DNA of 63,851 bases from a virus. The translations under genes and the position numbers were made by a program. This document shows, in pieces, positions 577-63,851 of this stretch. The stretch is from IMG/VR virus record IMGVR_UViG_3300024423_000001, positions 1 to 63,851 of that record; one strand, written 5' to 3'. Below the pieces are notes generated by a model, which was not told the origin of the DNA, searched no databases, and saw nothing but the letters and a program-made list of their open reading frames with translations. Each line of letters starts with the position of its first letter. Position 1 is the stretch's first letter.

Positions 577-1065
577 ATGAATGAAGTATTAGGCAGTAAG
601 GAAAAATTGCAATCTCGGTCAAATTTGAAGCCAATCCGCTGCACCTTGTGGGACGGCTCAGTCAGCAAAGAGGTCGAAGACTTCTCAGTCGTCTGGGGCG
701 TCGTGGAAGACGAGGAGACGGGCGAGCGAGTAGTCAAGTTCAATCTCAAGTTCGAAGACCGCGAGTTCGCTCTCTGGATCTCCGACCGTGTCTCTCTAAT
801 GACCATGCAGAAGATGCTTGAGGACGTGCTGGCAGGCTCGCAAGTTCAGCCAGAAGAGATAGTTGACGACGTAAATGCCGTTCTATCGGAGTTGAGGCAG
901 CGAGGTGTCCAGGGCTGGCAGTTCGAGTCCGCGGTCGGCAGTCTCTGTGAGAAATGGCAGCTAAGTCCAGAACAGACAAAGAAGATTATTGCACTATCGG
1001 TCGCGATTGCGAAGTTGGTGGAGGAGTGCCTCGCTACCAGGTCTGCTATCCCATATATTTTGTAA
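577..1065 (+). CDS. Hypothetical protein, 162 aa
   Basis: Not recognised. The N-terminal half reads as a compact beta-rich domain (GERVVKFNLKFEDREFALW region); the C-terminal half is helical and acidic. Codon pattern and amino-acid content are more protein-like than the two overlapping minus-strand frames at 498-806 and 846-1217, which I treat as shadows. It follows the repeat-bearing promoter region and precedes a 39-aa ORF. It sits in the late rightward arm between the baseplate genes and the radical-SAM operon. Confidence 0.7.
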   Translation: MNEVLGSKEKLQSRSNLKPIRCTLWDGSVSKEVEDFSVVWGVVEDEETGERVVKFNLKFEDREFALWISDRVSLMTMQKMLEDVLAGSQVQPEEIVDDVNAVLSELRQRGVQGWQFESAVGSLCEKWQLSPEQTKKIIALSVAIAKLVEECLATRSAIPYIL

Positions 1066-1196: not shown

Positions 1197-1316
1197 GATT
1201 TGCCATGAGGCACACATATTTCGAGTTAGACAAAATTTTAAGGTTCGTAAATAATAAAACCATTAGCCCTTCATAAAATTGCGATAGAACGCAAATCTGT
1301 GCATCTCATGCGAAAT
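1197..1316 (+). promoter_or_regulatory. 120-bp inverted-repeat promoter module, copy 1 (radical-SAM operon)
   Basis: Distal arm 1197-1239 (inverted) and proximal arm 1275-1316 flank a 35-bp spacer with a TATA-like AATAATAAAA at spacer offset about 11. The proximal arm ends on the ATG of the radical-SAM gene at 1315. The same 43-35-43 geometry recurs at 10399-10517 and 12641-12760 (minus genes) and 56486-56605, with a direct-repeat variant at 42720-42840. I read it as a TATA promoter flanked by two operator arms; the transcription start would fall a few nt inside the proximal arm. Confidence 0.7.
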
Positions 1317-2301
1317 GACCATAGGGTTCTTGAGGATAAACAACTCTTGCAATCTAAACTGTAAGTATTGTTACCTTCGAGACAATAAGCCTGCTGAACT
1401 CGATCTATCGATTCTGGATGACATCATAGAATTCTGCCATCGTGAACGTATTCAGACAATCGAGATCCCGCAACAAGAACCGTTACTGAATGAGAAACTA
1501 TTTCGTGAGATTGTCGAGAGACTCTTCGCAAATCACATCCGAGTCCGGGGTGTTACTACGAATCTCACCAACCTCGGCCAGAAGACGCTCGACCTACTCT
1601 GGAAATACGAGATTCACGTGCTGGTCTCTTATGACTCCCTGTGGCATGACCAGTTTCGTCGTACCAAAGCAAATGAACCAACCCGCTCGATAGTCGAAAG
1701 GAACATGGAGAAGCTGAAATCATCCGAGGTTCGGTTCTCGATTGCAATAACAGTTCCGAGTGCTGGGTGTCCACTCTTGCATGAAGCAGTAAGTCAAGCA
1801 ATAGGGTATTCCGATTCAGTAGCTTTGAACTTCGATGTTGTTTCCGACTATGGCCTCCGGGAATCAGACTTGCCTGTGTTAGAGGAGCAACTTCGTGAGG
1901 TTTATCGGGATTGTCCTTATATCTTTCCATTCTGGAAGATCCGAAATAGATTGATGTCAGGTTGGCGACTCGAGAACATTGCATGTGGCGCAGGTCGTGG
2001 TTCACTAACGATCAACTACAATGGAACTCTCTATCCATGTTATCACGTGACTGGCTGGCAGCGTATTGGAATCGCTCTTGGAAATATATGGAATGGTATT
2101 GATCACGCTCAGCAGCAGAGGTTTAGACAATATGGAGCTCCTGAGCAATCGTGCAGACGGTGCCCAACAGCTATTTGTGGCGTCTGCTATGTGAACTCTT
2201 ATCTCACTGTGGGTAACATGCTCAAACCGATACCAATCGAGTGTAAGTTGAAGAGGCTGCTAACAAAGGTCGTGAGAGATGGCATACATAGCAGCGCTTG
2301 A
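1315..2301 (+). CDS. Radical SAM/SPASM peptide maturase
   Basis: 328 aa. The radical SAM cluster motif CNLNCKYC supplies C12, C16 and C19 (CxxxCxxC). A C-terminal SPASM-type region (about residues 220-310) has the typical pattern: a Cys before a Gly-rich turn, YPCYH, CRRCP, CGVCY and a final ECKL. SPASM enzymes bind auxiliary Fe-S clusters and most modify ribosomally made peptides. The gene overlaps the next one by 23 nt, and that gene encodes a protein with Cys at every fourth residue, so a maturase-substrate pair is the natural reading. The start ATG lies at the end of the promoter module. It is not NrdG-like: it is too long and carries SPASM. The class and SPASM domain are clear; the substrate is inferred. 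Confidence 0.85.
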   Translation: MTIGFLRINNSCNLNCKYCYLRDNKPAELDLSILDDIIEFCHRERIQTIEIPQQEPLLNEKLFREIVERLFANHIRVRGVTTNLTNLGQKTLDLLWKYEIHVLVSYDSLWHDQFRRTKANEPTRSIVERNMEKLKSSEVRFSIAITVPSAGCPLLHEAVSQAIGYSDSVALNFDVVSDYGLRESDLPVLEEQLREVYRDCPYIFPFWKIRNRLMSGWRLENIACGAGRGSLTINYNGTLYPCYHVTGWQRIGIALGNIWNGIDHAQQQRFRQYGAPEQSCRRCPTAICGVCYVNSYLTVGNMLKPIPIECKLKRLLTKVVRDGIHSSA

Positions 2302-2758
2302 TTTCGAGAAGTGGGAGAACCATAAGGCATACTATACAATCTGGGTTAAGGATTGCATACCAGAAGAGCATTACTACAATTGCGTATATTATAACGACCG
2401 TCCGAAGAATTCATGTGGCAAGATTCCTTCAGGAAATGAATATACTCAAGAATGCTACGTCAGCGGAGGAAGCATCGACTATGGTGGCAGAACATACACA
2501 GCCAAGCTATGGTTGGACCGTTGTGAAGAAGGCACTTACGAGGACTCTGAGTCGCTATTTATTCCTACTGATCCTGATCTTTGTGAGATTCAGTGCCAAA
2601 CAAGTTGTGAAATTGCCTGCCAAGGTAGCTGTGAAGCTGTTTGCCAATCTTACTGCGAATTAAACTGTCAGACACAGTGCGAACTCAGCTGCCAGACTGC
2701 ATGTCAAGTAACCTCTCAGTTCTGCGGTCGAGATTGTGGACGTGGTTGTGGAAGATGA
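2279..2758 (+). CDS. Cys-every-4 repeat protein, candidate radical-SAM substrate
   Basis: 159 aa. Residues 1-100 form a Tyr/Cys-rich N-terminal domain with about five scattered Cys. From residue 102 to 142 there are 11 cysteines spaced exactly four apart, alternating CExx and CQxx, then Cys 149, 153 and 157 in a Gly-Arg tail (CGRDCGRGCGR). On a helix such spacing puts all thiols on one face; in a crosslinked peptide it gives a regular ladder. Translation is coupled to the upstream radical-SAM gene (overlap) and to the downstream gp10-like gene (4-nt overlap). There is no signal peptide or obvious protease-cut leader. Possible roles are a thioether-crosslinked (sactipeptide/ranthipeptide-like) product, a rigid virion spike, or a metal-binding protein. 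Confidence 0.8.
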   Translation: MAYIAALDFEKWENHKAYYTIWVKDCIPEEHYYNCVYYNDRPKNSCGKIPSGNEYTQECYVSGGSIDYGGRTYTAKLWLDRCEEGTYEDSESLFIPTDPDLCEIQCQTSCEIACQGSCEAVCQSYCELNCQTQCELSCQTACQVTSQFCGRDCGRGCGR

Positions 2759-3258
2759 TCAAACTCACAACGTCTGGAGGATTGAGCATTCGGAGTCAGA
2801 TTCAGCAAGACGTTTCGCGAATCCTGGAAGACCTTGCACGAGATTTTCTCAGGAAAGTTCAATCCAATGTCCTCAAACAACGAGCAGTGGATAGAGGTAT
2901 TCTTCTCAGGTCATTCAGAATACAGAGACCCGATCCTCTCACAAGAAGGGTGGTGAGCACAGCCAGACACGCATCGGCAGTCGAGTGGGGCAGACCTCCA
3001 GGTCGCCTTCCACCCGTCGGTGTGATAAGAGAGTGGGTGATCAGGAAGGGCATCATGAGAGGTGCAGAGCAGTTAAGTCTACGGGCACGTCGAAGAAAGC
3101 TACGAACTACACCGCTCGGCTGGCAAGTAGCGTGGTCGGTTGCAAAGAAGATTCAAAGACGGGGTATAGAAGAACGACCATTCTGGCGACCTGCTATTGT
3201 AGAAATCGAACGCAAGGCTAAACAGATACGATGGCGAGAGATTCTGCTCAGAAGATAG
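2755..3258 (+). CDS. HK97 gp10-like tail-completion (minor tail) protein
   Basis: 167 aa from ATG 2755, which overlaps the previous TGA; the frame stays open further upstream but that part is a shadow of the Cys-rich gene. The gp10 family pattern is visible: a helical N-terminus, an ASAVEWGRPPG segment, a Pro-flanked helix (PPVGVIREWV), an AWSVAKKIQRRG helix and the closing RPFWRPAI. These proteins join head and tail. In most siphoviruses the gene sits between connector and tail terminator; here it ends the arm, after the radical-SAM pair. It is very basic (many Arg). Confidence 0.7.
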   Translation: MIKLTTSGGLSIRSQIQQDVSRILEDLARDFLRKVQSNVLKQRAVDRGILLRSFRIQRPDPLTRRVVSTARHASAVEWGRPPGRLPPVGVIREWVIRKGIMRGAEQLSLRARRRKLRTTPLGWQVAWSVAKKIQRRGIEERPFWRPAIVEIERKAKQIRWREILLRR

Positions 3259-3716: not shown

Positions 3717-4018
3717 TCCATCATCTCCTCGGGAGTTAGAGGTTTGACTTTAATTCCATGTTTAGATTCGTAGTCAGCCCAGTACTTCCTCGATGCTTGG
3801 TTGTAGATATTCCTATCAATGTGAATCTCTGTGACAGTGCGATCGCCTGTTTCATCCTCCACATAGTCAACATAGACATAACCGTGATTCGGATCGTAAG
3901 TACAGTAGTGGCCTGTCTCCGTTAGCTGGTCTTGAGCTGGCGAATCTACGCAACCGAGTGATAGGACTATCAATATGAAGGTCAGGATAGCGATCAGCAC
4001 CTTGCTTAAGACCCTCAA
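3704..4018 (-). CDS. Putative viral lipoprotein, 104 aa
   Basis: The N-terminus has a basic start, a hydrophobic stretch (LIAILTFILIVLSLG) and a lipobox LSLGC at about residues 19-23, followed by a polar acidic domain. This implies export and lipid anchoring at the cell surface. The start is TTG at 4018, preceded by a good GGAGGTGA ribosome-binding site and overlapping the previous stop. It is translationally coupled to the membrane protein downstream; together they may change the host envelope, for example superinfection exclusion (inference). Confidence 0.65.
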   Translation of the reverse strand: MRVLSKVLIAILTFILIVLSLGCVDSPAQDQLTETGHYCTYDPNHGYVYVDYVEDETGDRTVTEIHIDRNIYNQASRKYWADYESKHGIKVKPLTPEEMMECLN

Positions 4019-4239
4019 TTTGATGAATCACCTCCTTCTGGTTCGATTATAACTACAAAATCGAATTTGCCCTCCAAGCATTCCTTTAGACGCCGAACAG
4101 TGCAGATACGCTCAGATAATTCTGCTGCTGGTACGTAATCTTCGTCTCGCATCATTTCATTCAGGACAAACTCTTTCCATCTCAGCCAGTCACTGAGATA
4201 GACAGCATTCCTTCCTTCGAGAACCAGAATTTCACCCAT
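4015..4239 (-). CDS. Tandem small-protein family, member 1 (74 aa)
   Basis: Starts at ATG 4239 (MGEILVLEG); an in-frame TTG two codons upstream is less likely. It keeps the family ending (CLEGKFDFVVI) but adds a short Ser-rich tail. It is the most downstream copy in the array and is followed directly by the lipoprotein TTG start. Function unknown. Confidence 0.7.
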   Translation of the reverse strand: MGEILVLEGRNAVYLSDWLRWKEFVLNEMMRDEDYVPAAELSERICTVRRLKECLEGKFDFVVIIEPEGGDSSN

Positions 4240-4486
4240 CGACAACTATCACAATATTGAACTTACCATTGAACGCTCGATTGATATAGCGAATCTCCCA
4301 TAATGTCTCGATAGTTTCATCTTCTATCTCTGACAATCTCTGATCATACTCTTCTGAATCCTTGAGACACTCTTTATAAGCCTCCTCCAGTTCCTCGAGA
4401 TACTCTTCCAAACTCTCTTTCTCTAAGGAAAGAGCAGAAAGACTCCATCTGTTGGAGTCCGGTTCCAGAATGTATACTTCACTCAT
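4232..4486 (-). CDS. Tandem small-protein family, member 2 (84 aa)
   Basis: Start ATG 4486 (MSEVYILEP) overlaps the previous stop; the frame is open to 4660 but that part is a shadow. A strongly acidic, coiled-coil-like middle (EEYLEELEEAYKE) lies between the N-terminal strand and the ending FNGKFNIVIVVDG. Closest by eye to member 3 (shared WEIRYI). Confidence 0.7.
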   Translation of the reverse strand: MSEVYILEPDSNRWSLSALSLEKESLEEYLEELEEAYKECLKDSEEYDQRLSEIEDETIETLWEIRYINRAFNGKFNIVIVVDG

Positions 4487-4721
4487 CATTGATAATGACA
4501 ATATCGAATCGTCCCTTAAGCGCTTGATCAATATATCGAATTTCCCAAACCGCCTCTTGGAATAGCTCTCGGATCGTCTTTGCTTCCAGTGACCGTGGAT
4601 CGCACTTTGGCAGTAACCGCTTAAACCTCTCAAGACGCTTGATAAGAATCCTCCGTTCACTTAGGAGGCTTGTAAGATCCCAGCTATTGCAGTGCCGTTG
4701 TAGGATATACACCTCACCCAT
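4479..4721 (-). CDS. Tandem small-protein family, member 3 (80 aa)
   Basis: Start ATG 4721 (MGEVYILQ). It shares WEIRYIDQALKGRFDIVII with its neighbours. The middle is more basic than in member 2, so family members differ greatly in charge while keeping both ends. Confidence 0.7.
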   Translation of the reverse strand: MGEVYILQRHCNSWDLTSLLSERRILIKRLERFKRLLPKCDPRSLEAKTIRELFQEAVWEIRYIDQALKGRFDIVIINDE

Positions 4722-4953
4722 CGGCAATGATGACTATGTCAAACTTACCGTCGAGTGCCTGATCTATAAATCGAATGTCGCGGCGGACCTCGTAAAGATT
4801 CTTCATCAGCGTCTCTTGGTATTCAGGTTCAGAACCTATCTCCAACCGAGTCTCTAAGTCCTCAAGTTCGAGGAGGAGAGCCTGCTTCACAAGTGTGAGA
4901 GAGCTGGACTGCCACACATCGCCAATTCGCTCGATAATGATGACGTCACTCAT
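4714..4953 (-). CDS. Tandem small-protein family, member 4 (79 aa)
   Basis: Start ATG 4953 (MSDVIIIER). Ends RFIDQALDGKFDIVIIADG. The stop overlaps the next ATG in the arrangement conserved across the array. Confidence 0.7.
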   Translation of the reverse strand: MSDVIIIERIGDVWQSSSLTLVKQALLLELEDLETRLEIGSEPEYQETLMKNLYEVRRDIRFIDQALDGKFDIVIIADG

Positions 4954-5176
4954 GCACCACGATGATATTGAACTTGCCTGCAAGCGCTGACTCAATGTCA
5001 CGTAAAGATCTGTATGTCTCGTAAAGATCATCGAGAACTCGATGTTCCATCGAAGGTGATAGATCTCCCTCCAATACGGCTTCCAGATGACTGAGTTTGC
5101 GAATTTGCCAGTCGCGTGTCTTTGTAAGTCTCTCTAACGCGCCTCCCAACTGATGCACGATAACAACTTCAGGCAT
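4946..5176 (-). CDS. Tandem small-protein family, member 5 (76 aa)
   Basis: Start ATG 5176 (MPEVVIVHQ); an upstream in-frame ATG at 5194 lies inside the previous gene and breaks the family pattern. Ends IESALAGKFNIIVVHE. Confidence 0.7.
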   Translation of the reverse strand: MPEVVIVHQLGGALERLTKTRDWQIRKLSHLEAVLEGDLSPSMEHRVLDDLYETYRSLRDIESALAGKFNIIVVHE

Positions 5177-5378
5177 CGATGCGCGATTCATCATCAGACT
5201 GCTTCTTTCTGTGGTATATCTCTTTGTTGATCTTTGCTATAATATCTTTCGTTTCTGCTATCCTGTCTAATAAACGATTTTCCCTCCTCTGTTGTATGCT
5301 TCTGTAATGGCTAAGGTACCAAATCGTCCTCTTCCGTTTCATCTTCCTACTCTTCTCAAGAATACGGTCTACATCCAT
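5169..5378 (-). CDS. Divergent array member, basic helical protein (69 aa)
   Basis: It occupies the position of an array unit but has lost both family strands. It is highly charged and helical (RKMKRKRTIWYL, then a long helix with KDIIAKINKEIYHRKK). Its start overlaps the previous stop as in the rest of the array. It may be a degenerate paralogue or an unrelated insertion. Confidence 0.55.
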   Translation of the reverse strand: MDVDRILEKSRKMKRKRTIWYLSHYRSIQQRRENRLLDRIAETKDIIAKINKEIYHRKKQSDDESRIDA

Positions 5379-5623
5379 CACACGTCCACCACGACAAGAT
5401 TTAGAGAACCTGACAGCAGTTGCTCAAGATGGCGCAAGGCCAGCCGTAGAACGTAGATCCGATCGAGAAGCTCCTCTTCTCTCTCCGTAAATGGAGAATG
5501 TGCTCGGTTCGAGAAATACTCCTCGAGCGCTCGGAGCTCAAACTGATGCGTTCCTACTGCGCGTGATAGTACTCGTACCTGGATTGCTCTCCCATTCCGC
5601 TTGTAAACCACAACTTCAGGCAT
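5378..5623 (-). CDS. Tandem small-protein family, member 6 (81 aa)
   Basis: Start ATG 5623 (MPEVVVYKR), ending HLEQLLSGSLNLVVVDV. Its ending resembles the distant copy at 9869-10147 (QLLTGDLNLIL) more than the other array members do, which hints at where that copy came from. Confidence 0.7.
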   Translation of the reverse strand: MPEVVVYKRNGRAIQVRVLSRAVGTHQFELRALEEYFSNRAHSPFTEREEELLDRIYVLRLALRHLEQLLSGSLNLVVVDV

Positions 5624-5858
5624 CCGCAATTATCACGATATCAAACCGTCCGCTTAAAGCTCTCTTGACTTCCGAGAGTGGCCAGTAGTTCCAAGCTAAC
5701 TGATCAAGAAGGCATTTCTCTACGCCCGAATCCAACTCAGGCTTGTTCAAAGAATCTTCCAACAGGTTAAGTCTCCGAAGCAACTCATTACGTCTACGAG
5801 AGAGGACTGTGCGTTTCCGTTGTCGTTCTTCGCATTCGTATATCACAACTTCCGCCAT
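5616..5858 (-). CDS. Tandem small-protein family, member 7 (80 aa)
   Basis: Start ATG 5858 (MAEVVIYEC), ending VKRALSGRFDIVIIADA. It is the most upstream copy. Its first 65 nt lie inside the 3' end of the RNase H gene in another frame, an unusually long overlap for this genome. Confidence 0.7.
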   Translation of the reverse strand: MAEVVIYECEERQRKRTVLSRRRNELLRRLNLLEDSLNKPELDSGVEKCLLDQLAWNYWPLSEVKRALSGRFDIVIIADA

Positions 5859-6258
5859 AATTAAGTATTCGATTCGCCAGTTCGTCTGCTCTACGAAGAT
5901 AGACTTCGTCTCGTGGTATCTTTCTCAGTATAGGCCAGTGGCTGAACATCGAGAGTAAGATCTGGATTGTAGAGTTGAGTTTCTCGAGTTCTGAGTTTCG
6001 AATCTGCCAACGGCCGAGTAGCTGGTTAACCACGAGAGCGCTATCAGAACAGACAACTATTTGATCATCACTACTCGCCTTTACGATTTCTAGCGCTCGC
6101 TGGACTGCTTTGTATTCCGCAACGTTATTAGTGGTTTGACCAAGATACTCCGAGTGCTCCAATACAACTCGACCTTCTTTGAGCACTACTATTCCAACTG
6201 CTGCCTCTCCAGGATTACCTCGACTCGCTCCATCCACATAGATCTTGATTTCAGCCAT
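5794..6258 (-). CDS. rnhA: Ribonuclease H (RNase HI type)
   Basis: 154 aa. Type 1 RNase H motifs are present: IYVDGASRGNPG (first catalytic Asp), NNVAEYKAV (catalytic Glu), VCSDSALVVNQL (second Asp) and RRADELANR (last Asp). The enzyme removes RNA from RNA-DNA hybrids, for example primers made by the viral primase. It is about the usual length, but its last 20 residues overlap the first array gene and may be a recent extension. The gene overlaps the 78-aa ORF upstream. Confidence 0.9.
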   Translation of the reverse strand: MAEIKIYVDGASRGNPGEAAVGIVVLKEGRVVLEHSEYLGQTTNNVAEYKAVQRALEIVKASSDDQIVVCSDSALVVNQLLGRWQIRNSELEKLNSTIQILLSMFSHWPILRKIPRDEVYLRRADELANRILNYGGSCDIRMRRTTTETHSPLS

Positions 6259-6487
6259 AGGCTACATCCTCCCGCTTGCCCCGTTGAATTGCCTCCTTCA
6301 ACGACTTGAACTCACGTATCACACCGTCAGCCTCAAAGTATCTGATAATATTTCCGAACTGTTCTGCCTGGCCCTTGACACGTTCCGCACCTGCAAGAAC
6401 GAAGTCCACATAGTCTTCGACATCCTTGATCGTTCTGACTTCCTTCAGAACTTCCTCCAATCTTTTCTCATCCTGCTCTTCGGTCAT
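6251..6487 (-). CDS. Hypothetical acidic helical protein, 78 aa
   Basis: Start ATG 6487 forms an ATGA overlap with the NrdD stop, so the two are translationally coupled; the longer upstream frame is a shadow of nrdD. The protein is helical and charged (MTEEQDEKRLEEVLKEV). Position between nrdD and rnhA suggests a nucleotide or DNA metabolism link, but the family is unknown. Confidence 0.65.
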   Translation of the reverse strand: MTEEQDEKRLEEVLKEVRTIKDVEDYVDFVLAGAERVKGQAEQFGNIIRYFEADGVIREFKSLKEAIQRGKREDVAYG

Positions 6488-8253
6488 GCACCTATTCGAT
6501 ACGGAGTCCGATCTCTCCACTCCGATTGCTTTCCTTCGTTCCATGCCCTCACGTTCGATAGATAACCTACGACTCGTGAGAAGACATCCGCTGGACCACC
6601 ACATTCAGGGCATCGCCAATGCTCACCTGAGAAAGTCTGATGGCACTTTGAGCACACACTAAACGTTGGTGTGATTGTGAAGTATGGTAGGCAGGTTCGA
6701 TTCACCAGTCTTTCAGCTAAGAATGGAATTACTCTCGCATCGGGACGCTCGGGTAAGAATACATGGAACACAGTTCCACCAGTATACAACCGCTGAAGTT
6801 GCTCTTGATGCCTCACTGCTTTACCTAAGTTCTGGGTGTATCCGACCGGGAGCATCGTCGAGTTAGTGTAGTAGGGCGCCTTCCGATTGCCTGAAACGTA
6901 ACAGCCTGGTAGGGACTTGACGTCGATCTTTGCAAGTCTATGCGAACACCCCTCGGCAGGTGTTGCTTCAAGGTTCCACAGGTCGCCAGTCTCTTCCTGA
7001 TATTCAACCAGTCTCTCTCTCATCACGATCAGGACTCTCTTCATCAGGTTCAGACCTTCAGGATCGGCAATCGAGCAACCTAAGAAATTCTGACATGCCT
7101 CTTCGCCACCTACGAGCCCGATGGTCGAGAAGTGATGATCGAATCCTGGCAGAAAGTTTCGCGAATATGGCATGAGGCCTTCATTGAAGCTCCTGTTACA
7201 AATCGCTCGTTTGATGACCAATGACTGCTTTGCCAGATCCATGTAATGTACGACGTTCTCGAAGAACTCTGATTCGTCTTTGGAGAGGTAAGCGAGTCTG
7301 GCAAGGTTCAGAGTAACGACTCCGATACTGCCCGTAGTATCGCCGAAGCCGAACAAGCCACCTGTCTTTCTTTTAAGTTGGGTTAGATCCAAACTCAAGT
7401 GACAGCACATTGAACGGACATCGTGACGTTTCAGGCCGGTGTTCTCTGAACAGTTTTGGAAGTATGGGATCCCGAACTTTGCGGTTACCTGTGCTAATTT
7501 TCTACCTACTTCAGTATCCCAACTGAAAGCGTCATCCATGAGATAAGTTGGTATTGGAAACCTGAACACTCCGCCGTTCGCATCTCCTTCTTCCAGTACG
7601 TCCAAGAATGCCAGATTAAACATCTCGATCTCTTGCTCAAAATCACCGTATACCTTATCCTGTAACTGACCACCCACGATAACGGCTTGGTCCTTGAGGT
7701 CATCAGGAGGAACGAGGTCGAGTGTAAAGTTCAAGAACGGGCTTTCCAAGCCCCACCTGGTCGGTTCATTCACCCCATACACGAACTCCTGGATCGTTTG
7801 TTTGACTTGGTTGAAAGTCAGCCCATCGTAATAAATGAAGGGAGCCAACAGCACGTCGACTGAATTCCAGGCCATAGCACCCGCCCACTCCTGTTGCAAG
7901 ACTCCAACAGCATTCATCAGTTGACCTAATGCAGATGAGAAGTGTCTTGGTGGACGACTCCGAACTACACCGGGCGGACCGCTGAAACCGCGAGACAGTA
8001 GATCTTGTAAACTCCAACCACTGCAATAGCCGACTATACCCGCTCCTAGGTCATGAATATGAAAGAACCCCTCCGTATGCGCCTTCGCTATCTCCGGAGG
8101 ATAGACATGTTTCAATACATATCGAGCTATCTCAGACTCCGCAAGATATGCCTTCAAACCTCCAACTGACCTTATACGGTTGGCATTCTCGTTTGCACCA
8201 TCAACACGACTTCGCCAAGTTCGACCCTTGATATATGTCTCCACTCTACTCAT
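6484..8253 (-). CDS. nrdD: Anaerobic ribonucleoside-triphosphate reductase (class III), large subunit
   Basis: 589 aa. Reduces ribonucleotides to deoxyribonucleotides using a glycyl radical; strictly anaerobic. Visible features are the FHIHDLG segment near residue 63, the CCHLSLDL region mid-protein, the zinc site C534/C537 and C548/C551 (CSKC, CPEC) and the radical-glycine loop RVVGYL with G563. It lacks the N-terminal ATP cone of longer cellular enzymes, as in T4-type phage NrdD. No nrdG activase was found in the genome, so the host activase is probably used. It overlaps neighbours on both sides. Confidence 0.92.
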   Translation of the reverse strand: MSRVETYIKGRTWRSRVDGANENANRIRSVGGLKAYLAESEIARYVLKHVYPPEIAKAHTEGFFHIHDLGAGIVGYCSGWSLQDLLSRGFSGPPGVVRSRPPRHFSSALGQLMNAVGVLQQEWAGAMAWNSVDVLLAPFIYYDGLTFNQVKQTIQEFVYGVNEPTRWGLESPFLNFTLDLVPPDDLKDQAVIVGGQLQDKVYGDFEQEIEMFNLAFLDVLEEGDANGGVFRFPIPTYLMDDAFSWDTEVGRKLAQVTAKFGIPYFQNCSENTGLKRHDVRSMCCHLSLDLTQLKRKTGGLFGFGDTTGSIGVVTLNLARLAYLSKDESEFFENVVHYMDLAKQSLVIKRAICNRSFNEGLMPYSRNFLPGFDHHFSTIGLVGGEEACQNFLGCSIADPEGLNLMKRVLIVMRERLVEYQEETGDLWNLEATPAEGCSHRLAKIDVKSLPGCYVSGNRKAPYYTNSTMLPVGYTQNLGKAVRHQEQLQRLYTGGTVFHVFLPERPDARVIPFLAERLVNRTCLPYFTITPTFSVCSKCHQTFSGEHWRCPECGGPADVFSRVVGYLSNVRAWNEGKQSEWRDRTPYRIGA

Positions 8254-9868: not shown

Positions 9869-10147
9869 TCACGAATACAATTCCTCCAAATCAGGTTCAT
9901 TTAACTCTAACTTCAGAATCAGATTCAGATCCCCTGTCAGCAACTGCTGCATGTGCGAGATAGCAGCCTTCAACGCAACGAGGCGCATAGATTCGAGCCT
10001 GACATGTTCAGGATAGCCTAAGTCTATCTCCTCCTCAATAAGCCTCGACAGTTCTCGCTGCTTCTCTGCTATCAGATCCGAGAACCGAATCAGCGAATTC
10101 CATTGCAGTTTGCCATGCCTGATGGGAATTATGACTACCTCAGCCAT
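9869..10147 (-). CDS. Distant copy of the tandem small-protein family (92 aa)
   Basis: Begins MAEVVIIPI and contains AISHMQQLLTGDLNLILK, matching the N- and C-terminal strands of the array at 4015-5858, with an extra acidic tail (NEPDLEELYS). It lies about 4 kb upstream of the array in the same transcription direction. Closest to member 6. Confidence 0.65.
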   Translation of the reverse strand: MAEVVIIPIRHGKLQWNSLIRFSDLIAEKQRELSRLIEEEIDLGYPEHVRLESMRLVALKAAISHMQQLLTGDLNLILKLELNEPDLEELYS

Positions 10148-28815: not shown

Positions 28816-29714
28816 TGAAGCTTGTTCTGTTAGGCACGGGAGATGGTAAGGTAAAGGATAGAAAGGATAGCTCATTATGGCTTGAGCGTGGTTCGGTTGC
28901 TATTCAGTTCGACCGTAGTGATGACCATCGAGATTATCAAAAGCCCGATGTGTTGTTCATAACGCATTACCATCCTGACCATTATTCCAGAGATGCAGTT
29001 GCTGGTATCGAACGGGTATACGGTCCGGAGGAGCGTGACAACGTTAAGTTGGCTAAGGCGCGGGAAGTTATTGACGACATTGAGGTTCGAGCTGTGCCGG
29101 TCGATCATTCGGTTCAGTCAAAGACAGTTGTCTATTTTGTCTTTACTCCAGAGCTGAGGTTTCTCTATGCACCTGATCTGCTAACGATGCCCGCATCTTA
29201 TGAGTTGTATCGTAGACTTGACCTCTATATCGGTTGTGGTTCTTCTCCAGATCGTGACATTGTCTATGCAACTCCGGACGGTGAAGTTGGGCATATCTCT
29301 ATGAGAAACCAAGAGAAGTTCGTCAGACGATTAGCACCAAGCGCGAGAATAGTATGGACTCATATTTCTGAAGAGACTGGGAGTCAAGTTGACGGATTGC
29401 CGAATGATGGTAATGTCATATTCGACTCCGAGAGTGAGACAAGAAAGGCGCTGGACTATCTCGTGTGGATACCTGGGTTCATTAGTCAGACAGGTTCAAG
29501 TGTGTATGGGAAGTTGGTGGGCAATGAGGTTCGATCGCCTGACCAGGCTCGTGATATTGACATAGTGATGAGGTTCGAGGAACGGCTTGGAAGGCTGTAT
29601 CTCGACCGGGCTGCGAGGTTGAAGATAGATAGATTCGTGGAGGCTGTTCGAGGTTCAAAACCTCAGTGGCAGAAAGGAGATGAGTCGCGTCTTATTGTTG
29701 AGGAACTGCATTGA
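28815..29714 (+). CDS. Metallo-beta-lactamase-fold hydrolase fused to a nucleotidyltransferase-like domain
   Basis: 299 aa. N-terminal MBL fold: ITHYHPDHY (H51, H53, D55, H56), a later His in VDHSVQ, Asp in YAPDLL and His in WTHISEE complete the metal ligands. No beta-CASP insert. The C-terminal 100 residues show the minimal NTase pattern GSSVYGKLV then DIDIVMRFE (GS...DxD). A nuclease plus nucleotidyltransferase directly upstream of a ligase suggests nucleic-acid end processing. The NTase call is by motif only. Confidence 0.65.
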   Translation: MKLVLLGTGDGKVKDRKDSSLWLERGSVAIQFDRSDDHRDYQKPDVLFITHYHPDHYSRDAVAGIERVYGPEERDNVKLAKAREVIDDIEVRAVPVDHSVQSKTVVYFVFTPELRFLYAPDLLTMPASYELYRRLDLYIGCGSSPDRDIVYATPDGEVGHISMRNQEKFVRRLAPSARIVWTHISEETGSQVDGLPNDGNVIFDSESETRKALDYLVWIPGFISQTGSSVYGKLVGNEVRSPDQARDIDIVMRFEERLGRLYLDRAARLKIDRFVEAVRGSKPQWQKGDESRLIVEELH

Positions 29715-32313
29715 GTTGGAGGGTGACCGTGTCAAGGTCAATCTTCCCTATGATGATAGAGGTTATTATCTACCGCTGCAGCCTGACGATATATTGAAGA
29801 AGGCGGGGCTTGGTGGTGATTTGATCTTCAGTTCGTATGGTCCTGACTGGACTCATCGTCCGCTGTATGATCTCGTGTTCTTTGTGACTGAGAAAGGTTT
29901 CGATCTTGGGCTGGTGGAGTCCCAGGTTCCAGCAACTGAGATAGTGGATCTTGATGCTCCGACGGTTCAACAACAATTCTTGGCACAACTTCGGAAGGCA
30001 GGCTATTATTCAAAGGCGAAACCTCGCTATCGACTCTTTGGCAAGACGTTCTTCGAGGACTTGAAAGGTCAGGGATTCGAATATCCTCTATTGGTAGATG
30101 TCAAGGCTGATGGGCTTCGTATATCGCTTGGGAAGGAGGACGGTAAGCCATTCATCTGGGTTGATCCGGAGGACTTAAAGCGGAAGAGCCCGGATTGTAC
30201 GGATAGATTTCCGGCAATAGTGAAGGATTTGGAGAAGTTGCCTGACGATACCATATTGGATGGTGAGTTCATTGCGGTCAAGGGAAATGAGGCACTGCAT
30301 AGAACGGTTGCAAATGCGCTGATGAATTCCAAAGCCGCACCTGAGGATCTATCGCCGTGGGCAGCAATATTCGTCTTCGATATACTGAAATACGATGATA
30401 GGGACTTGAGGGACCTGCCGCTGTCTGAGAGGCTCAAGTATCTTGCGAAGCTGCCAAAGTTCGATCGCATTGTGGTCGAGCAGCCATCGGAGAAGTTGGA
30501 CGGTAAGCATCCTGCTTATATTGTTCGGTCAGACGATGAGATGGAGAAGGCTATTGATCTTATACGTGATTCGAAGACGGGGATATGGGAGAAGGCTGCG
30601 GAAGGTGTAATGGTAAAGAAGCTTGATCATCCTTATGAAGTGCCGCAGAATCACGGATGGTGCTTGAAGGGAGGGTCTTACTTACTGACGCCAGAAGGGT
30701 TCATTCAGATAAAGTATCTCGAGCCAGGCATGGAGGTATTGGCTGGAGACGGTAAGTTCCACAGGATTAAGCGGGTATTTCAGCGAGCAATGACGTCTGA
30801 GGATGAAATCATTGAGATAAATACTCATTATTCTCCTAAGGTGAGATTAACTGCGGATCATAAGGTTTTAACGACAGTGGGCTGGGTTGCTGCTGGTGAT
30901 CTATGGGGTCCATTCAGAGAACCTAAGTTGAGTGTAGAGGTTCCAGAACCTCCGAAGAAGGTTGAACTCCAGATCTGGGGCTATCGGAAGAAGATAGATC
31001 TGACTCCAGATTTGCTTAAGGCTATCGGTTTTATTCTGGCGGAAGGGTCGTTCGTGACGAGTGCTTCGGGCCGATGGGCATACCAAGGAATTCGGGTGGG
31101 GGCTAAGCAGGATTTAGGTTGGTTTAGGGGAATAATTCAGCAGTCTCTCGGCGTTAAGTGTGGGGAATGGACTTATCCAGATAAATCGGTTGTTGAGTTC
31201 TATGATCCTCCATTCGCTCAGTGGTTGCGGGATACATTCATTGCTAATCATAGCAAATCTTACGGAACGAAGAATATACGTTGGAAGACTTATCAGATTA
31301 AAATCCCTCTTTGGTTTGCGAAGTTAACTGAGGAGCAGTGGTTAGGATTCGTAGAAGGATATTGGCTTGGTGATGGGTATCGAGGACGAAAATTTAGAAT
31401 AGGAACGTCGTCATCCTATATGGCTGGTACGCTTTATTTGGTTGCTAAGTTGCGAGGCTGGGATGCGACGGTGAATTGGGCTGGAACGAGAGGTGAGAAT
31501 TCGTTCAAGGTTTATCTTTCCCCGACTCTTATCGAAAAGACTAAGAGACCATCCATTCGTAAGGTCGAAGTAAGTTCTGTTCATCGGAGTCTCGACCTGC
31601 TGTGGGATCTTGAGATTGAGGGAGAACGATCGTATTCAAATGGTGAGGTGGTGTTCCATAACTCGAAGATGAAGTGGTTGCACGAGGCAGATGTTGTTGT
31701 TCTCGCTCGTAAGTTAGTCAAAGGGCAGACAGATGTGTGGAATTACGAATTGGGCATTAGCATTACAGAGGATTATGCTCGTAAGATTCCGGTTCAAAGA
31801 CTTGCGTGCATTGATGGAAGCGAGGCTTACTTTGGTCCAGAGGCGGTCCAGCGATTTGGCAAGCAGGGAGTTAAGTGGTTCATGAGGTTCGGCAAGTCAG
31901 ATAATACCAAACTCGATTTGAGGGTAGGTGATGTTCTTCGAGTAGCGCCTGAAGAGGTCTTGGAGGAACCAAATGAGGAGAATCCCGATTATCCAGTATA
32001 TAGAGGTTATATTTCCATTGCTCTTGAGCCGGTGCCGGAAAAGGATCGGTCAGATGACTTGAAGGTCTTTGAACGGTTGGCAGAGGAGGAGCCACAGAGG
32101 ATTTCGGTAGAGGAGCTGAAGAGATTACGACGGCAATCATTGGAGAAGGCTCGTATATATCTACGACCGGGTGAAGTAGCTCCGCCTGGTGTCGAGGTCA
32201 AGCGAGGTCCACGTGGCGGTCGATACTATGAAACCGAGGAGACTGAGGAGCGACCAGCTGAGAAGTTCAGAATAGTCATCTTTACGAAGGAGGGCAAGAG
32301 GATACATCGATGA
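29680..32313 (+). CDS. ATP-dependent DNA ligase interrupted by an intein
   Basis: 877 aa including a 334-aa intein (residues 328-661). Ligase nucleotidyl-transfer motifs: I VKADGLR (K142), III LDGEFIAV, IIIa IFVFDIL, IV EGVMVKK, V SKMKW after the intein. An OB-like region follows, then a linker PPGVEVKRGPRGGRYY, a tract common in phage morphogenesis proteins. It overlaps the MBL gene by 35 nt; a TTG near 29718 is an alternative start. The TGA at 32311 is followed by an open frame in register to 33111. A ligase inside the head module is unusual and may act on packaged or ejected DNA. Confidence 0.82.
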   Translation: MSRVLLLRNCIELEGDRVKVNLPYDDRGYYLPLQPDDILKKAGLGGDLIFSSYGPDWTHRPLYDLVFFVTEKGFDLGLVESQVPATEIVDLDAPTVQQQFLAQLRKAGYYSKAKPRYRLFGKTFFEDLKGQGFEYPLLVDVKADGLRISLGKEDGKPFIWVDPEDLKRKSPDCTDRFPAIVKDLEKLPDDTILDGEFIAVKGNEALHRTVANALMNSKAAPEDLSPWAAIFVFDILKYDDRDLRDLPLSERLKYLAKLPKFDRIVVEQPSEKLDGKHPAYIVRSDDEMEKAIDLIRDSKTGIWEKAAEGVMVKKLDHPYEVPQNHGWCLKGGSYLLTPEGFIQIKYLEPGMEVLAGDGKFHRIKRVFQRAMTSEDEIIEINTHYSPKVRLTADHKVLTTVGWVAAGDLWGPFREPKLSVEVPEPPKKVELQIWGYRKKIDLTPDLLKAIGFILAEGSFVTSASGRWAYQGIRVGAKQDLGWFRGIIQQSLGVKCGEWTYPDKSVVEFYDPPFAQWLRDTFIANHSKSYGTKNIRWKTYQIKIPLWFAKLTEEQWLGFVEGYWLGDGYRGRKFRIGTSSSYMAGTLYLVAKLRGWDATVNWAGTRGENSFKVYLSPTLIEKTKRPSIRKVEVSSVHRSLDLLWDLEIEGERSYSNGEVVFHNSKMKWLHEADVVVLARKLVKGQTDVWNYELGISITEDYARKIPVQRLACIDGSEAYFGPEAVQRFGKQGVKWFMRFGKSDNTKLDLRVGDVLRVAPEEVLEEPNEENPDYPVYRGYISIALEPVPEKDRSDDLKVFERLAEEEPQRISVEELKRLRRQSLEKARIYLRPGEVAPPGVEVKRGPRGGRYYETEETEERPAEKFRIVIFTKEGKRIHR
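30661..31662 (+). mobile_element. Intein with LAGLIDADG endonuclease in ligase motif V
   Basis: 334 aa. The first residue is Cys (CLKGGSYLLTPEG), the last two His-Asn (VVFHN), and the +1 extein residue Ser 31663-31665, all classical. Block B-like TADHKVLT is present. The two endonuclease motifs are IGFILAEGS and FVEGYWLGDGY. Exteins join HGW to SKMKW, restoring motif V, whose Lys is catalytic, so the ligase stays inactive until splicing. A typical homing site choice. Confidence 0.9.
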
Positions 32314-59202: not shown

Positions 59203-59368
59203 CGAGTTCACTCCGCACTTTATCGAGGTTCAACTCGCTCGTGAATTGCATTTGTCTCCCTTAGAGGTTCGGAAGATGGCAGCCCGAGATGTCCTTGTGT
59301 ATATGGAGTTTCTTACTTTGATTAAGGAAGAGGAGCGCCGAGAGGCGGAACGTATGAGAAATGGTTGA
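59156..59368 (+). CDS. Tail assembly chaperone, downstream frame (possible frameshift product)
   Basis: 70 aa from a TTG, or an extension of the upstream frame. EAYYGSVNEFTPHFIEVQ, LHLSPLEVRKMAARDVLVYM is the compact helical domain typical of chaperone C-termini. It is +1 relative to the upstream frame, so +1 or -2 slippage would be needed; a separate start is also possible. Confidence 0.55.
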   Translation: MSERRRIREAYYGSVNEFTPHFIEVQLARELHLSPLEVRKMAARDVLVYMEFLTLIKEEERREAERMRNG

Positions 59369-61025
59369 GTTCTCGCTTGTGTATAACATTACTGCCAGAA
59401 TCTCGCAGGCACTTACCGGACTGCGGAATGTTGCAGCTGGCATTGAAGACTTAGGTCGAACCTCGAGGAGATCGGCAAGAGACACTGAACGGAATCTTCT
59501 CGTCCAGAAACTGAGTTGGTTAGCGTGGGCTGCTGCTGTTGGTTATTCAGTTAGGGAAATAATCCTCCGCAGTACTGTCTTATCTACATTTATTAGAGGG
59601 CTTGGTAGTATCTTCATGGCATTCCTCGACACTGCACTGGCTCCGCTAATTCCGTTCTTTGTCAGGATCATCGGCTGGCTGATGCGGTTGTATAGATGGT
59701 GGCGTAATCTACCAGCACCTGTTCGGGGAGCAATCGGCGCCTTCTTGCTCTTGCTCGGCTCGTTAGCTACTGTCATTACGTTCTTGAAGGCATTTGGATT
59801 TATTCTCATGCCATTACTCCACATATTCAGATTCGTCTGGCGTGGAATTCTCGGAATAACGAGACTCGCAGTTGCGGGAATTGCTGCTCTGATAGGTGCT
59901 GGTCCAATTGGCTGGGCTATACTCGCTATTATTGGCATTGTAACGTTTCTTCTCCTTGCATGGAAATACAACTGGTTTGGGATGCGCGACGTCCTCAACC
60001 GAGTCGGTGCTGCGATAAAGGCTGGTATCCTTGCAGTAGCCGGGTTCTTAAAGGATTTGGGTGTTAAGATAGTCGAGTTCTTTGCTGGACTGCCGCAGTT
60101 CTTTGCTGAGCTACCAGGTAAGATCGCAGGTGCACTCTCGACAGCAGGCTCGATTATCGCAAGTTGGGCTGCTTCCGCCAAGAATACGATAGTTACATTC
60201 TTCACTTCATTGCCAGAACGGGCACGGTCAGCATTCGATGTTCTGAGGGAGAAGTGTAGTTCGGGACTTGAGACAGTTCACAATTTCTTTCAAGAGCACT
60301 TCCCGACTCTAACACGAATCGTTGATGGTGCTATGTCGGTTTTGGGATCTAAGTTGTCGGAAGGACTATCCTCAATGGTCTCCGTCACGCGCGGTAACTT
60401 ACCCCTGATAGGAAGCGCTTGGGACAAGTTACTCAGGGGCGATATACCAGGTGCATTCCGAGATTGGTCGCAAGCCATCGTCAACATTAGCAGGGGAACG
60501 TTCGACACCCTAAACAACCTCACTGGTGGTCGACTTGGTGAGTGGCTAAACATTGCGGTTGGAAAGTTTAACGACTTTGTTGATAAAGTAAGGCAGTTCG
60601 GTTCCGAGGTGGTGGATCGGGTTCGGTCGTTTGGCTCTGTGTTTCTTGAGGCAGGTCGCTATCTTGTTGATGAGCTTGTGAAAGGTCTCGCTAACATTGG
60701 CGATCGAATTTGGAACGCCATGAGAGCTGGGCTTTCGGATGTAGCGAATAAACTGCGGGACTGGGCATCTGGCCTGATAAGTTTCTCTCCTCGTATCTCC
60801 GAGATTCCTGCGATCTTTGCTCGGACGCTTAGCCGGGGCTTTGCTGCTCGTGGTTTCGAGGCTCCTCGAGTTCATGTGGGAACACCTGCTGCCGAATCGA
60901 AAGTTGTTCAGTTCTCACCTACCATTACAGTCAATGTCGAAGTTAGGGAGGGAGGTAAATCACCTGAGGAGCTAGCGGATGAAATCGCAAGTTTGCTCCA
61001 GAGAAAGATGGAGGCGATTCTCTGA
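59361..61025 (+). CDS. Tape measure protein
   Basis: 554 aa. Helical with hydrophobic spans (about residues 65-215) and a C-terminal amphipathic region with SPRISEIPAIF. Short for a tape measure, so the tail should be short. It sets tail length and enters the host membrane on DNA entry. Confidence 0.85.
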   Translation: MVEFSLVYNITARISQALTGLRNVAAGIEDLGRTSRRSARDTERNLLVQKLSWLAWAAAVGYSVREIILRSTVLSTFIRGLGSIFMAFLDTALAPLIPFFVRIIGWLMRLYRWWRNLPAPVRGAIGAFLLLLGSLATVITFLKAFGFILMPLLHIFRFVWRGILGITRLAVAGIAALIGAGPIGWAILAIIGIVTFLLLAWKYNWFGMRDVLNRVGAAIKAGILAVAGFLKDLGVKIVEFFAGLPQFFAELPGKIAGALSTAGSIIASWAASAKNTIVTFFTSLPERARSAFDVLREKCSSGLETVHNFFQEHFPTLTRIVDGAMSVLGSKLSEGLSSMVSVTRGNLPLIGSAWDKLLRGDIPGAFRDWSQAIVNISRGTFDTLNNLTGGRLGEWLNIAVGKFNDFVDKVRQFGSEVVDRVRSFGSVFLEAGRYLVDELVKGLANIGDRIWNAMRAGLSDVANKLRDWASGLISFSPRISEIPAIFARTLSRGFAARGFEAPRVHVGTPAAESKVVQFSPTITVNVEVREGGKSPEELADEIASLLQRKMEAIL

Positions 61026-61390
61026 TGCCCGAAGTAGAGATTGGTGTTGGAAGTGACAAAGTAACTCTCAAGGTTGAGAAGATAGCCGAACGGATTAGTA
61101 AACAACCAATTGTATCACCCTTGCCTGAAGCCGAGACTGTCATGCTTGATTTAGGCCAGATAACTACAAAGATTGTAATGGAAGGTTTCTGGACTAATTA
61201 TGGCGATAAGAGCACGTTCCTATCGAAGCTCGTGTCATGGGACGGTAGTGAAGGCGGTATAGAGGTTAAATTTCCTCATGAGGGCAATCGAACTATCAAG
61301 ACCTGTATTGACAGTTGCATAGTAACTTACATTGAAGGCGAAGGTCAATGGAAGTTTACGCTCACACTTAATCAGTATTATGGGACATGA
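61025..61390 (+). CDS. Baseplate/distal-tail protein, 121 aa
   Basis: TGATG overlap. Beta-rich with a charged EGFWTNYGDKSTFL centre, between tape measure and hub, where distal-tail-type small proteins lie. Family not assigned. Confidence 0.55.
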   Translation: MPEVEIGVGSDKVTLKVEKIAERISKQPIVSPLPEAETVMLDLGQITTKIVMEGFWTNYGDKSTFLSKLVSWDGSEGGIEVKFPHEGNRTIKTCIDSCIVTYIEGEGQWKFTLTLNQYYGT

Positions 61391-63621
61391 AATGGGACTT
61401 GTGGATCAATGGACAGGGCAGTTATCGTAGTCGTGTTGTAGGTTTGGAGATAGTTCGGAAGCGTGGTCAGCTTACGCTGGTCAAGGGCACCTTAGTTGGA
61501 GTGTCTGAGAGCGAGGCGGATTCAATTGACTTCTGGTCGTTGTTTACGCTGAAGAGTTCTTCGCTGTCCGAACCAAATTATACAACAATACAGGGCCGGA
61601 TAACGAAGAAGAACTATGATAAGTTCAGACGCCAGTTAGAGTTTACGGGTTATGATGCTCTCATTAAATTCGATCAAGATGCGGGCGAGGAGCAGATCTT
61701 TGAGAATGTTACTGCCCGCTCGGTTCTCCAGGCACTGATCTCGCAGTATGTGGAAACGACTAACACGAGTCTGGTCGTTGACACCTCTGATGCGATTCTC
61801 GATACCAAGCTGTCATTCAGAGTCTCGCGGGATTCGATTCTCAAGCTATTCGCAAAACTACTCTCGCTTATAGGTGCGAGCTGGTATCTCAGTTATGAGG
61901 ACTGGCAGGACGGTTACTATCTCCATGAGAAGGTCAAGGTCTTTGTGCCGGGATCGGTTTCGGCTGATTCGGTCTCGGATTCAAAAGTTCGAGGAGTTAG
62001 TGTCTCACGTAGCCGGTCTATCATTAATGCTGTAAAGGTCTTAGGTCGTGGTGATGGCATTAATCAACTGTGGAGCTATGATGATCACAGTGCAGGTGAG
62101 CAGCGGGCTGTCCTGAAGACCGAAATTTCAGAATCTACAAGTCCTCCCTTTACCATAAAGATTTCAAAGCCTGCAAGCTTTCCTCAGTCTGGTGACATCT
62201 GGATAGGTCGTGAACTGTTCCATTTCGACAGCAGGACCACCGCTGATGGTGACTATCAGTTAGACATAAGTGAGCGGGGCAAATCTCCAGGACTTAGTGC
62301 CTATCGTCATGAGAAAGGCATTATTGTTAGACCTGCTTATCCCGTGACGTATCCTCATAGTAGTTCTTCCATAAAGAAGTTCGGATTACAATCGAACGTT
62401 ATTACTGACAAAAGCATCATTGACCAGAACTGTCTCGACCGCCTTGCCAACAGGATCATTGAGAACCATGCGAAGCCGGGCAAGAATCTTACTCTTGACA
62501 CAGCCTACACAGACGATTATGACGGTTTGCCTGGGTTTAAACTTACTTATGATGACGAGGACTGGATAATTGCGGAGATCAAATATTCGGAGAAGCCGTA
62601 TCCGCGGACTGTCATCACGGCTGGTCAGGTGTATTCTCCTCTTCTTGAAGAGATCAAATCCATTGAACGCGAAGTAACTCTTGAGCAGGCTTACGGTCAG
62701 GGTGCTACGAACCTCTATCAAGTGGGTCCAGTTGTGGAGTCTATTGACAACAGCAAGCCATTCAAGTTCACGTTGCGAATACCTGAGGATGCAGTCGCTA
62801 TCAATCTTGTGAGAGTCAGTCTCAAGTCGCTACCGTGGCGTAGTTACGAAAAGGTGACGGAATACGAAGAGCCTTCGGACGTGCCCACCTCAAGCACAGA
62901 TAAGGAGACAATAACCTCGAAGGGGCCGACGCATACCACTTCAGAAATCGTCTCTACATTTTGTCGTGACGATGCCTCGACTGTATTCATGACAGGCAAG
63001 GTTATCACTTCGAGTACTTATTTCACTCTTGATCCGCCAGCCGAATACGACGCTTCGAAACATCTTCGGACGCGGGTTGTTGCATTCGTCATGAACTTTT
63101 CTTACGAGGACTCATTTACCCTCAAGCGAGTCAGGCTGAGGGACATCGAAGCAGATACGTGGCTTGAGACTAAGGGACAGAATGTGGAGATCCCGCGAGG
63201 TCAAGCTCGGGCATTCAGATTTACACCTATTACAGATAGTTCAGTTGCCAGCCATCGGCTCAGAGTCCATGCTGAGGCAACAGAACCGACACCGTGTTTA
63301 GGACTCTTAGCCTTCCGTGAGGTCGAATACAAGCATGAGCACGACATCCAGTTCGGCGGGCACAGCCACACAATAGACAAATCCTATTTCAACCACAGAC
63401 ACGATCTAGAGCACGGTATCTTTGAAGAGGAGGGGTCAGGTAATCCATTATATCTCAAGGTCAACGACACAGAAGTTTGGTCCGACATATCCTCCAAGAC
63501 CGATAATCTTGCAGACTACTTCAAGCCTGGTGATAACAAGATTGAGGTTGGTCTCAGCTCTGGCAGCCTTGGCAGGTTCCAGTTCGATGCCTGGGTCAAG
63601 TGCTTTGTTGAATCTCGATAG
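61387..63621 (+). CDS. Baseplate hub/tail-tip protein with His-rich segment
   Basis: 744 aa. The N-terminal half resembles siphovirus hub (gp37-like) proteins: ITKKNYDKFRRQLEFTGY, SVLQALISQYVE, DSILKLFAKLLSLIGASW. Near residues 640-675 is a His cluster (YKHEHDIQFGGHSHTIDK, NHRHDLEHG), a probable metal-binding fibre tip. It ends the tail module before the junction gene. Confidence 0.75.
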   Translation: MKWDLWINGQGSYRSRVVGLEIVRKRGQLTLVKGTLVGVSESEADSIDFWSLFTLKSSSLSEPNYTTIQGRITKKNYDKFRRQLEFTGYDALIKFDQDAGEEQIFENVTARSVLQALISQYVETTNTSLVVDTSDAILDTKLSFRVSRDSILKLFAKLLSLIGASWYLSYEDWQDGYYLHEKVKVFVPGSVSADSVSDSKVRGVSVSRSRSIINAVKVLGRGDGINQLWSYDDHSAGEQRAVLKTEISESTSPPFTIKISKPASFPQSGDIWIGRELFHFDSRTTADGDYQLDISERGKSPGLSAYRHEKGIIVRPAYPVTYPHSSSSIKKFGLQSNVITDKSIIDQNCLDRLANRIIENHAKPGKNLTLDTAYTDDYDGLPGFKLTYDDEDWIIAEIKYSEKPYPRTVITAGQVYSPLLEEIKSIEREVTLEQAYGQGATNLYQVGPVVESIDNSKPFKFTLRIPEDAVAINLVRVSLKSLPWRSYEKVTEYEEPSDVPTSSTDKETITSKGPTHTTSEIVSTFCRDDASTVFMTGKVITSSTYFTLDPPAEYDASKHLRTRVVAFVMNFSYEDSFTLKRVRLRDIEADTWLETKGQNVEIPRGQARAFRFTPITDSSVASHRLRVHAEATEPTPCLGLLAFREVEYKHEHDIQFGGHSHTIDKSYFNHRHDLEHGIFEEEGSGNPLYLKVNDTEVWSDISSKTDNLADYFKPGDNKIEVGLSSGSLGRFQFDAWVKCFVESR

Positions 63622-63655: not shown

Positions 63656-63851
63656 ATGGAGCGTTGCGAGATAGATTTAAGTGAACTCTATCCTGAACCT
63701 GAAGACCCAATCGAGGAGGCTCTGTTTCAGAAGCAATATCACATACCGTTTAGAGACGCCTACGGACGACGACAGGTCTGGGACATTGATACACCGCTTG
63801 AGGTCAAGTTGATTCTTGAGGCTATCCTCCAGGACGTCAGTGATCACGAGT
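63656..63851 (+). CDS. Junction-spanning small acidic protein (5' part)
   Basis: ATG 63656 after CAGGAGGTGTTGCTT, so a good ribosome-binding site. The frame continues unbroken at base 1 of the window to TAA at 228-230, completing about 101 aa. See the entry at 1-230. Confidence 0.85.
   Translation, partial: MERCEIDLSELYPEPEDPIEEALFQKQYHIPFRDAYGRRQVWDIDTPLEVKLILEAILQDVSDHE
63729..63851. repeat. Terminal direct repeat (circular overlap), copy 2
   Basis: Identical to 1-123. See the first copy. Confidence 0.95.

Follow-up and report, generated by a model that had tools for sequence, protein, structure and literature searches.

The virus genome examined here, a 63,851-base IMG/VR record that we refer to as the window, encodes a radical SAM/SPASM enzyme together with a small protein that carries a long run of cysteines at every fourth residue. 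This pairing of enzyme and Cys array is real, conserved, and recurrent, and it is found widely in tailed viruses, cultured phages among them. The two gene products very likely stand in the relation of maturase and substrate. We consider it probable, moreover, that the SPASM enzyme is dedicated to the Cys-repeat protein of the same operon, and that the array is thereby cross-linked into a rigid, reductant-proof part of the virion. The relevant features of the window, with the evidence for each in parentheses, are listed below; L393 is a related contig.

577..1065, + strand: 162-aa protein upstream of the maturase (L393 ortholog 64% identical)
1315..2301, + strand: radical SAM/SPASM enzyme, putative maturase, 328 aa (PF04055 and PF13186 over cut-off)
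2279..2301, + strand: 23-nt overlap of the maturase and Cys genes (same length in L393, 6965-6987)
2279..2758, + strand: Cys-repeat protein, 159 aa (ORF and Cys positions)
2582..2704, + strand: Cys array CEIQCQTSCEIACQGSCEAVCQSYCELNCQTQCELSCQTAC (Cys spacing, shuffling)
2755..3258, + strand: HK97-gp10/Neck1 tail-completion protein (PF04883, 6.4e-5; phrog_5, 3.1e-9; L393 85% identical)
59361..61025, + strand: tail tape-measure protein, the anchor of the tail arm (PHROGs 1272 and 58, about 2e-19)
61387..63621, + strand: tail-hub-like protein, encoded after the tape measure (position, terminal repeat; L393:2798-5005 76% identical)

Positions 1-123 of the window are identical to positions 63729-63851, and this 123-bp direct terminal repeat (DTR) implies that the window is a complete genome, either terminally redundant or circular. 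The ends of the record are cut within a small tail-arm gene. The + strand carries the gene set of a head-tail virus (terminase, portal, protease, major capsid protein, tape measure, and tail proteins), and the replication genes lie on the - strand. Read across the terminal repeat, the order is tail hub (61387-63621), the small end-spanning gene, the 577-1065 gene, SPASM enzyme, Cys protein, and Neck1. Both the terminal repeat and L393 place the tail-hub gene directly upstream of this module, and the Neck1 gene begins at 2755, inside the Cys gene, through an ATGA overlap. These placements agree with the first-pass annotation of this DNA, which had put the pair beside a tail-completion gene in the virion arm, and the 23-nt overlap that it reported between the SPASM ORF and the 159-aa Cys protein is exact. 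It had also assumed an archaeal setting, which is plausible though not proven: viruses of Thermus/Meiothermus and of haloarchaea are both represented among the best terminase matches, and archaeal and bacterial viruses likewise among the polymerase matches.

The idea that the pair has its own promoter module is unsupported, as promoter-like sites occur at chance level, though the non-coding region at 240-576 holds several diverged dyads (e.g., 282-304 with 386-408, 87% complementary) and facing AT-rich, TATA-like stretches. Ahead of the maturase lies the motif GCGNNAGANCGCAA, which was set aside as well, its genome frequency being at chance level. For the 577-1065 gene, a Pfam search gave a weak match to PqqD (E 0.056) and there was no fold match at E <= 0.001; matches to Gasdermin_C and LktC (E 0.06-0.11) were dismissed as chance. 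It would be a guess to regard its product as a separate recognition element (RRE).

Several other regions of the genome are unusual in their own right. Small paralogs at 4015-5858 (- strand), joined by another at 9869-10147 (- strand), form a tandem family whose members mostly share an ALxGKFDIVIIxDG-like end motif, and the cluster at 4015-5858 represents an unusual local gene amplification. An ATP-dependent DNA ligase (29680-32313) may contain an intein, given matches to Hint and intein-splicing domains (E 0.002-0.01). A large tail-arm protein (53222-56485) with DUF2341, FG-GAP, and LamG-like domains is probably an adhesin.

The enzyme scores above the Pfam cut-offs for both the radical SAM domain (PF04055, 42.6 versus 29.5 bits), which places it in that superfamily, and the SPASM domain (PF13186, 31.7 versus 21.5 bits). 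Its CxxxCxxC motif at residues 12-19 reads CNLNCKYC, and an EP pair at residues 55-56 lies in the sequence QQEP, in place of the usual GGEP. The SPASM cysteines are at positions 224, 242, 280, 283, 288, 291, and 310; in an alignment of nine viral enzymes, C224, C242, C280, C283, C291, and C310 are invariant. The two best NCBIfam profiles are PapB (NF047865, 3.9e-27) and QhpD (TIGR03906, 5.8e-19), although both curated cut-offs are missed by far (95.3 versus 340 bits and 68 versus 453 bits, respectively). The solved structures nearest in sequence are the thioether maturases CteB (3.8e-7) and SkfB (1.3e-3) in the PDB. SCIFF maturases are likewise among the top curated families, again with a score far under the cut-off, and by sequence the enzyme is nearest to maturases that form thioethers (PapB, QhpD, and SCIFF). 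In a tree, it groups with the enzymes of the viral contigs L130 and L185, but weakly (96/75) and on a long branch; all three have a SPASM-domain end resembling CxxCxxxxCxxCYVxN.

The Cys protein consists of an N-terminal region (residues 1-101) with five Cys residues, the array (102-142) built of C[E/Q]xx units, and the C-terminal sequence CGRDCGRGC. The array cysteines described in the first-pass annotation (11 residues at positions 102, 106, and onward to 142, exactly four residues apart, followed by Cys 149, 153, and 157) are correct to the residue, and five additional cysteines that it did not mention are present at positions 26, 35, 46, 59, and 82. The longest Cx3 run comprises 11 cysteines, compared to a maximum of 6 in 20,000 shuffles of the protein, and the underlying 8-fold TGY-N9 DNA pattern had no match in 100 shuffled windows. 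Each unit has the form C-E/Q-x-x, with strict alternation of E and Q in the window. Among the five 8-residue units, just 11-16 of 24 bases are shared and 8-13 differ, and because the unit DNA has diverged to this extent, the pattern is kept by selection on the protein rather than by recent DNA duplication. The protein had no Pfam match, and NCBIfam gave nothing at E values up to 1, including for the CXXX-repeat targets TIGR04114/04117/04118; its match to PHROG 6085 (E 0.066) is below significance. Its predicted fold (AlphaFold) is unusable (pLDDT 36).

Scans of viral and genome collections with the single proteins recovered no direct relatives. An alignment-based scan of viral contigs, however, identified L393, a 20.7-kb contig with the same gene order and with identities of 76% (tail hub), 64% (577 gene), 72% (SPASM), 69% (Cys protein), and 85% (Neck1). 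This single contig confirms that the tail hub is located ahead of the module, since the tail-hub gene (L393:2798-5005) adjoins the 577 ortholog. The 23-nt overlap of maturase and Cys genes is conserved. The Cys-protein ortholog (L393:6965-7444) retains 18 of the 19 cysteines, only Cys157 being lost; all 11 array cysteines are retained, six of them through a different Cys codon, whereas 9 of the 20 linker residues at positions +2 and +3 are kept. Position +1 of the array is always E or Q, and two of the five array Glu residues are replaced by Gln. Because synonymous divergence (dS) between the window and L393 has reached saturation, we report no dN/dS ratio for this pair.

As the first-pass annotation had proposed, further viral SPASM genes near Cx3 repeats were sought, and the association holds in both directions. 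In the forward test, viral contigs were scanned for Cys-repeat DNA patterns blind to the enzyme, and counts refer to samples among the matches listed. The raw Cx3 matches listed were mostly low-complexity sequences or shadow frames, and these served as controls. Among the matches listed, 24 records with genuine arrays were selected without regard to the enzyme, and PF04055 is present in 19 of them, compared with none of the 32 control records (p 1e-10). With the inclusion of two records that had been added for their enzyme, a radical SAM gene is present in 21 of 26 array records, again among the matches listed, and four of the five array records that have none are short (8-17 kb). In the reverse test, 80 viral loci with radical SAM enzymes related to that of the window were considered; 63 of them have a Cys-dense ORF within 6 kb, versus 2 of 203 control loci (p 2e-44). 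The controls had been selected through matches to low-complexity Cys patterns, and the figure of 63/80 overstates independence because several loci are from near-identical phages (e.g., within L415-L432). One radical SAM profile used in the searches was seeded partly from array loci, which makes the independent Pfam search (19/24 versus 0/32) the cleaner test. Given this association and the overlap conserved in L393, the earlier view that enzyme and Cys protein belong together is supported.

The paired genes are often very close to each other: the maturase and array are 4 nt apart in L185 and L176 and overlap in L134, L200, and L209. Maturases beside C[EQ]xx arrays have PapB as the best match in all eight that were scanned, and those beside CG/CS-type arrays have TIGR04115 as the best match. 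TIGR04115 is also the best match of the viral L075 enzyme, which reaches 340.6 bits against a cut-off of 350, and of the enzymes of phage SPN3US. The cultured jumbo phages SPN3US and CR5 each carry two unannotated Cx3 ORFs; these lie among structural genes and close to two radical SAM genes that are annotated.

L122 6106-6917 (CR5): unannotated Cx3-repeat ORFs (6106-6504 and 6465-6917) near two radical SAM genes
L123 6091-6904 (SPN3US): unannotated Cx3-repeat ORFs (6091-6489 and 6503-6904) near two radical SAM genes

Matches to the phage records L127 and L128 were rejected, as they are SCIFF-maturase-like and come without a Cx3 array. Other Cys periodicities, such as CDCNYCTC repeats, occur near viral radical SAM genes in L124 (455-2056), L401, L404, and L438, including Campylobacter phage F379. 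In L126 (2219-2743), a fecal "phage" record that is possibly bacterial DNA, a Cys-repeat protein with a twin-arginine-like N-terminus adjoins a radical SAM gene.

Many viruses carry the array within a protein of 300-1200 aa, and some of these proteins are tail-like. In L185, for example, a YqbQ-like tail protein and a second tail protein (phrog_9983) both contain an array, and the maturase follows after 4 nt. Arrays are also found in fibre-J-like proteins (L200 and L443), in a Tail_P2_I protein (L242), in a tail protein of L406, and at the start of long proteins (L134, L176, and L301); array carriers have mostly weak matches to tail proteins, with E values between 1e-3 and 1e-6, and around half of those scanned belong to no named family. 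Small free-standing Cys proteins are present in the window, L123, L129, and L197. The virion or tail reading that had been offered for this pair is thus favored by gene location and by arrays within tail proteins elsewhere, but the window protein itself has no sequence match to a tail family among Pfam, NCBIfam, and PHROG profiles.

Several known systems resemble the pair in part. QhpD, which matures quinohemoprotein amine dehydrogenase (TIGR03906), makes Cys-Asp/Glu thioethers on a protein subunit, not on a small peptide (in part PMC8172795). Its profile is second best for the window enzyme and its target is a protein, but it serves a cellular enzyme complex that has no Cys-every-4 array. The PapB/PapA ranthipeptide system (freyrasin, NF047865) provides the top enzyme profile and a Cys-rich target; PapB links Cys sulfur to Asp or Glu side-chain carbons and tolerates varied spacing, but requires a carboxylate, for which Glu is accepted (PMC9413430). 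PapA, however, is a small peptide, whereas the window pair is in a viral tail operon and lacks the CX3D/E motif of PapB substrates: the residue at i+4 of an array Cys is another Cys, and E or Q is located at +1 and +5. The rSAM/CXXX-repeat systems (TIGR04114, 04115, 04117, and 04119) similarly place a radical SAM/SPASM enzyme next to a CXXX repeat, but the proteins covered by the NCBI models are bacterial and archaeal, and the window enzyme scores 34.7 bits against the cut-off of 350 for the maturase model TIGR04115. SCIFF maturases (CteB, PDB 5WGG, TIGR03974) share the SPASM domain, a Cys-rich target, and thioether products, and CteB is the closest solved sequence, but it has an N-terminal RRE domain (PMC8172795) whereas the window enzyme starts at the barrel. 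The viral family PHROG 6085 is matched by the Cys-array proteins of L166 and L435 and only weakly by the window array.

We infer thioether chemistry, a virion location, and a role in the tail. The enzyme would process the array cysteines successively, bonding each sulfur to a carbon of a nearby residue, with removal of 2 H for every link and probably several links per array. Glu at +1 or +5 would be the best chemical candidate for the partner, as in PapB and QhpD. However, a strict Cys-Glu scheme is doubtful, because the CX3D/E motif is absent and Glu is exchanged for Gln in L393. The product may be a rod or plug, resistant to reductants and proteases, that belongs to the virion tail, at its completion, hub, or tip, and aids host contact or penetration.

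An unlikely, though not negligible, alternative is that the array is a metal-binding or disulfide-linked segment of the virion, and that the enzyme makes one or a few links, or else acts on the N-terminal region or on a different tail protein. Even Cys spacing and the Glu/Gln exchange would also suit metal sites or disulfides, and other spacings (CxC and CNYC) likewise occur beside viral radical SAM enzymes. Against this reading, a simple metal or disulfide array would not be expected to associate so tightly, and in both directions, with SPASM enzymes from families that form thioethers. We give even less weight to the possibility that the modified Cys protein is a free peptide acting inside or outside the cell, such as a RiPP-like antimicrobial, a signal, or a superinfection factor. 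Small free-standing Cys proteins and the cellular CXXX-repeat RiPP families (TIGR04114/04117/04118) are consistent with such a product. However, the Cys gene overlaps a tail-completion gene, the array often resides within a long and sometimes tail-like protein, and no exporter, protease, or immunity gene was recognised beside the pair; the antimicrobial role that had been suggested is unsupported. Thus, on the basis of gene location and the tail-protein fusions, we favor a virion part over a released peptide.

Some phages have many radical SAM genes without a clear role (Campylobacter phages, PMC2853527), and the enzyme might in the same way serve metabolism or cofactor chemistry as an unrelated neighbor of the Cys gene. 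This is highly improbable, as it is contradicted by the conserved 23-nt overlap and by the co-occurrence statistics.

Regarding tailed viruses as a whole, we see about an even chance that radical SAM/SPASM maturases were recruited repeatedly, in several lineages of the enzyme, for cross-linking cysteine arrays that are built into tail hub, tip, or fibre proteins. Part of the infection machinery would thereby be locked covalently, and the window would carry the free-standing form of this arrangement. Known examples of radical SAM cross-linking come from peptide natural products and from a few enzyme subunits. A literature search, with most subscription papers outside its reach, returned no description of the pairing or of radical SAM-modified virion proteins. 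The earlier statement that no viral system of this kind is described agrees with this result, but the pairing itself occurs in many tailed viruses. It is directly testable in the cultured phages SPN3US and CR5. If our interpretation is correct, virions carry cross-links made by radical chemistry, for which we found no report in virus particles, and this would account for the unexplained radical SAM genes of many phages.
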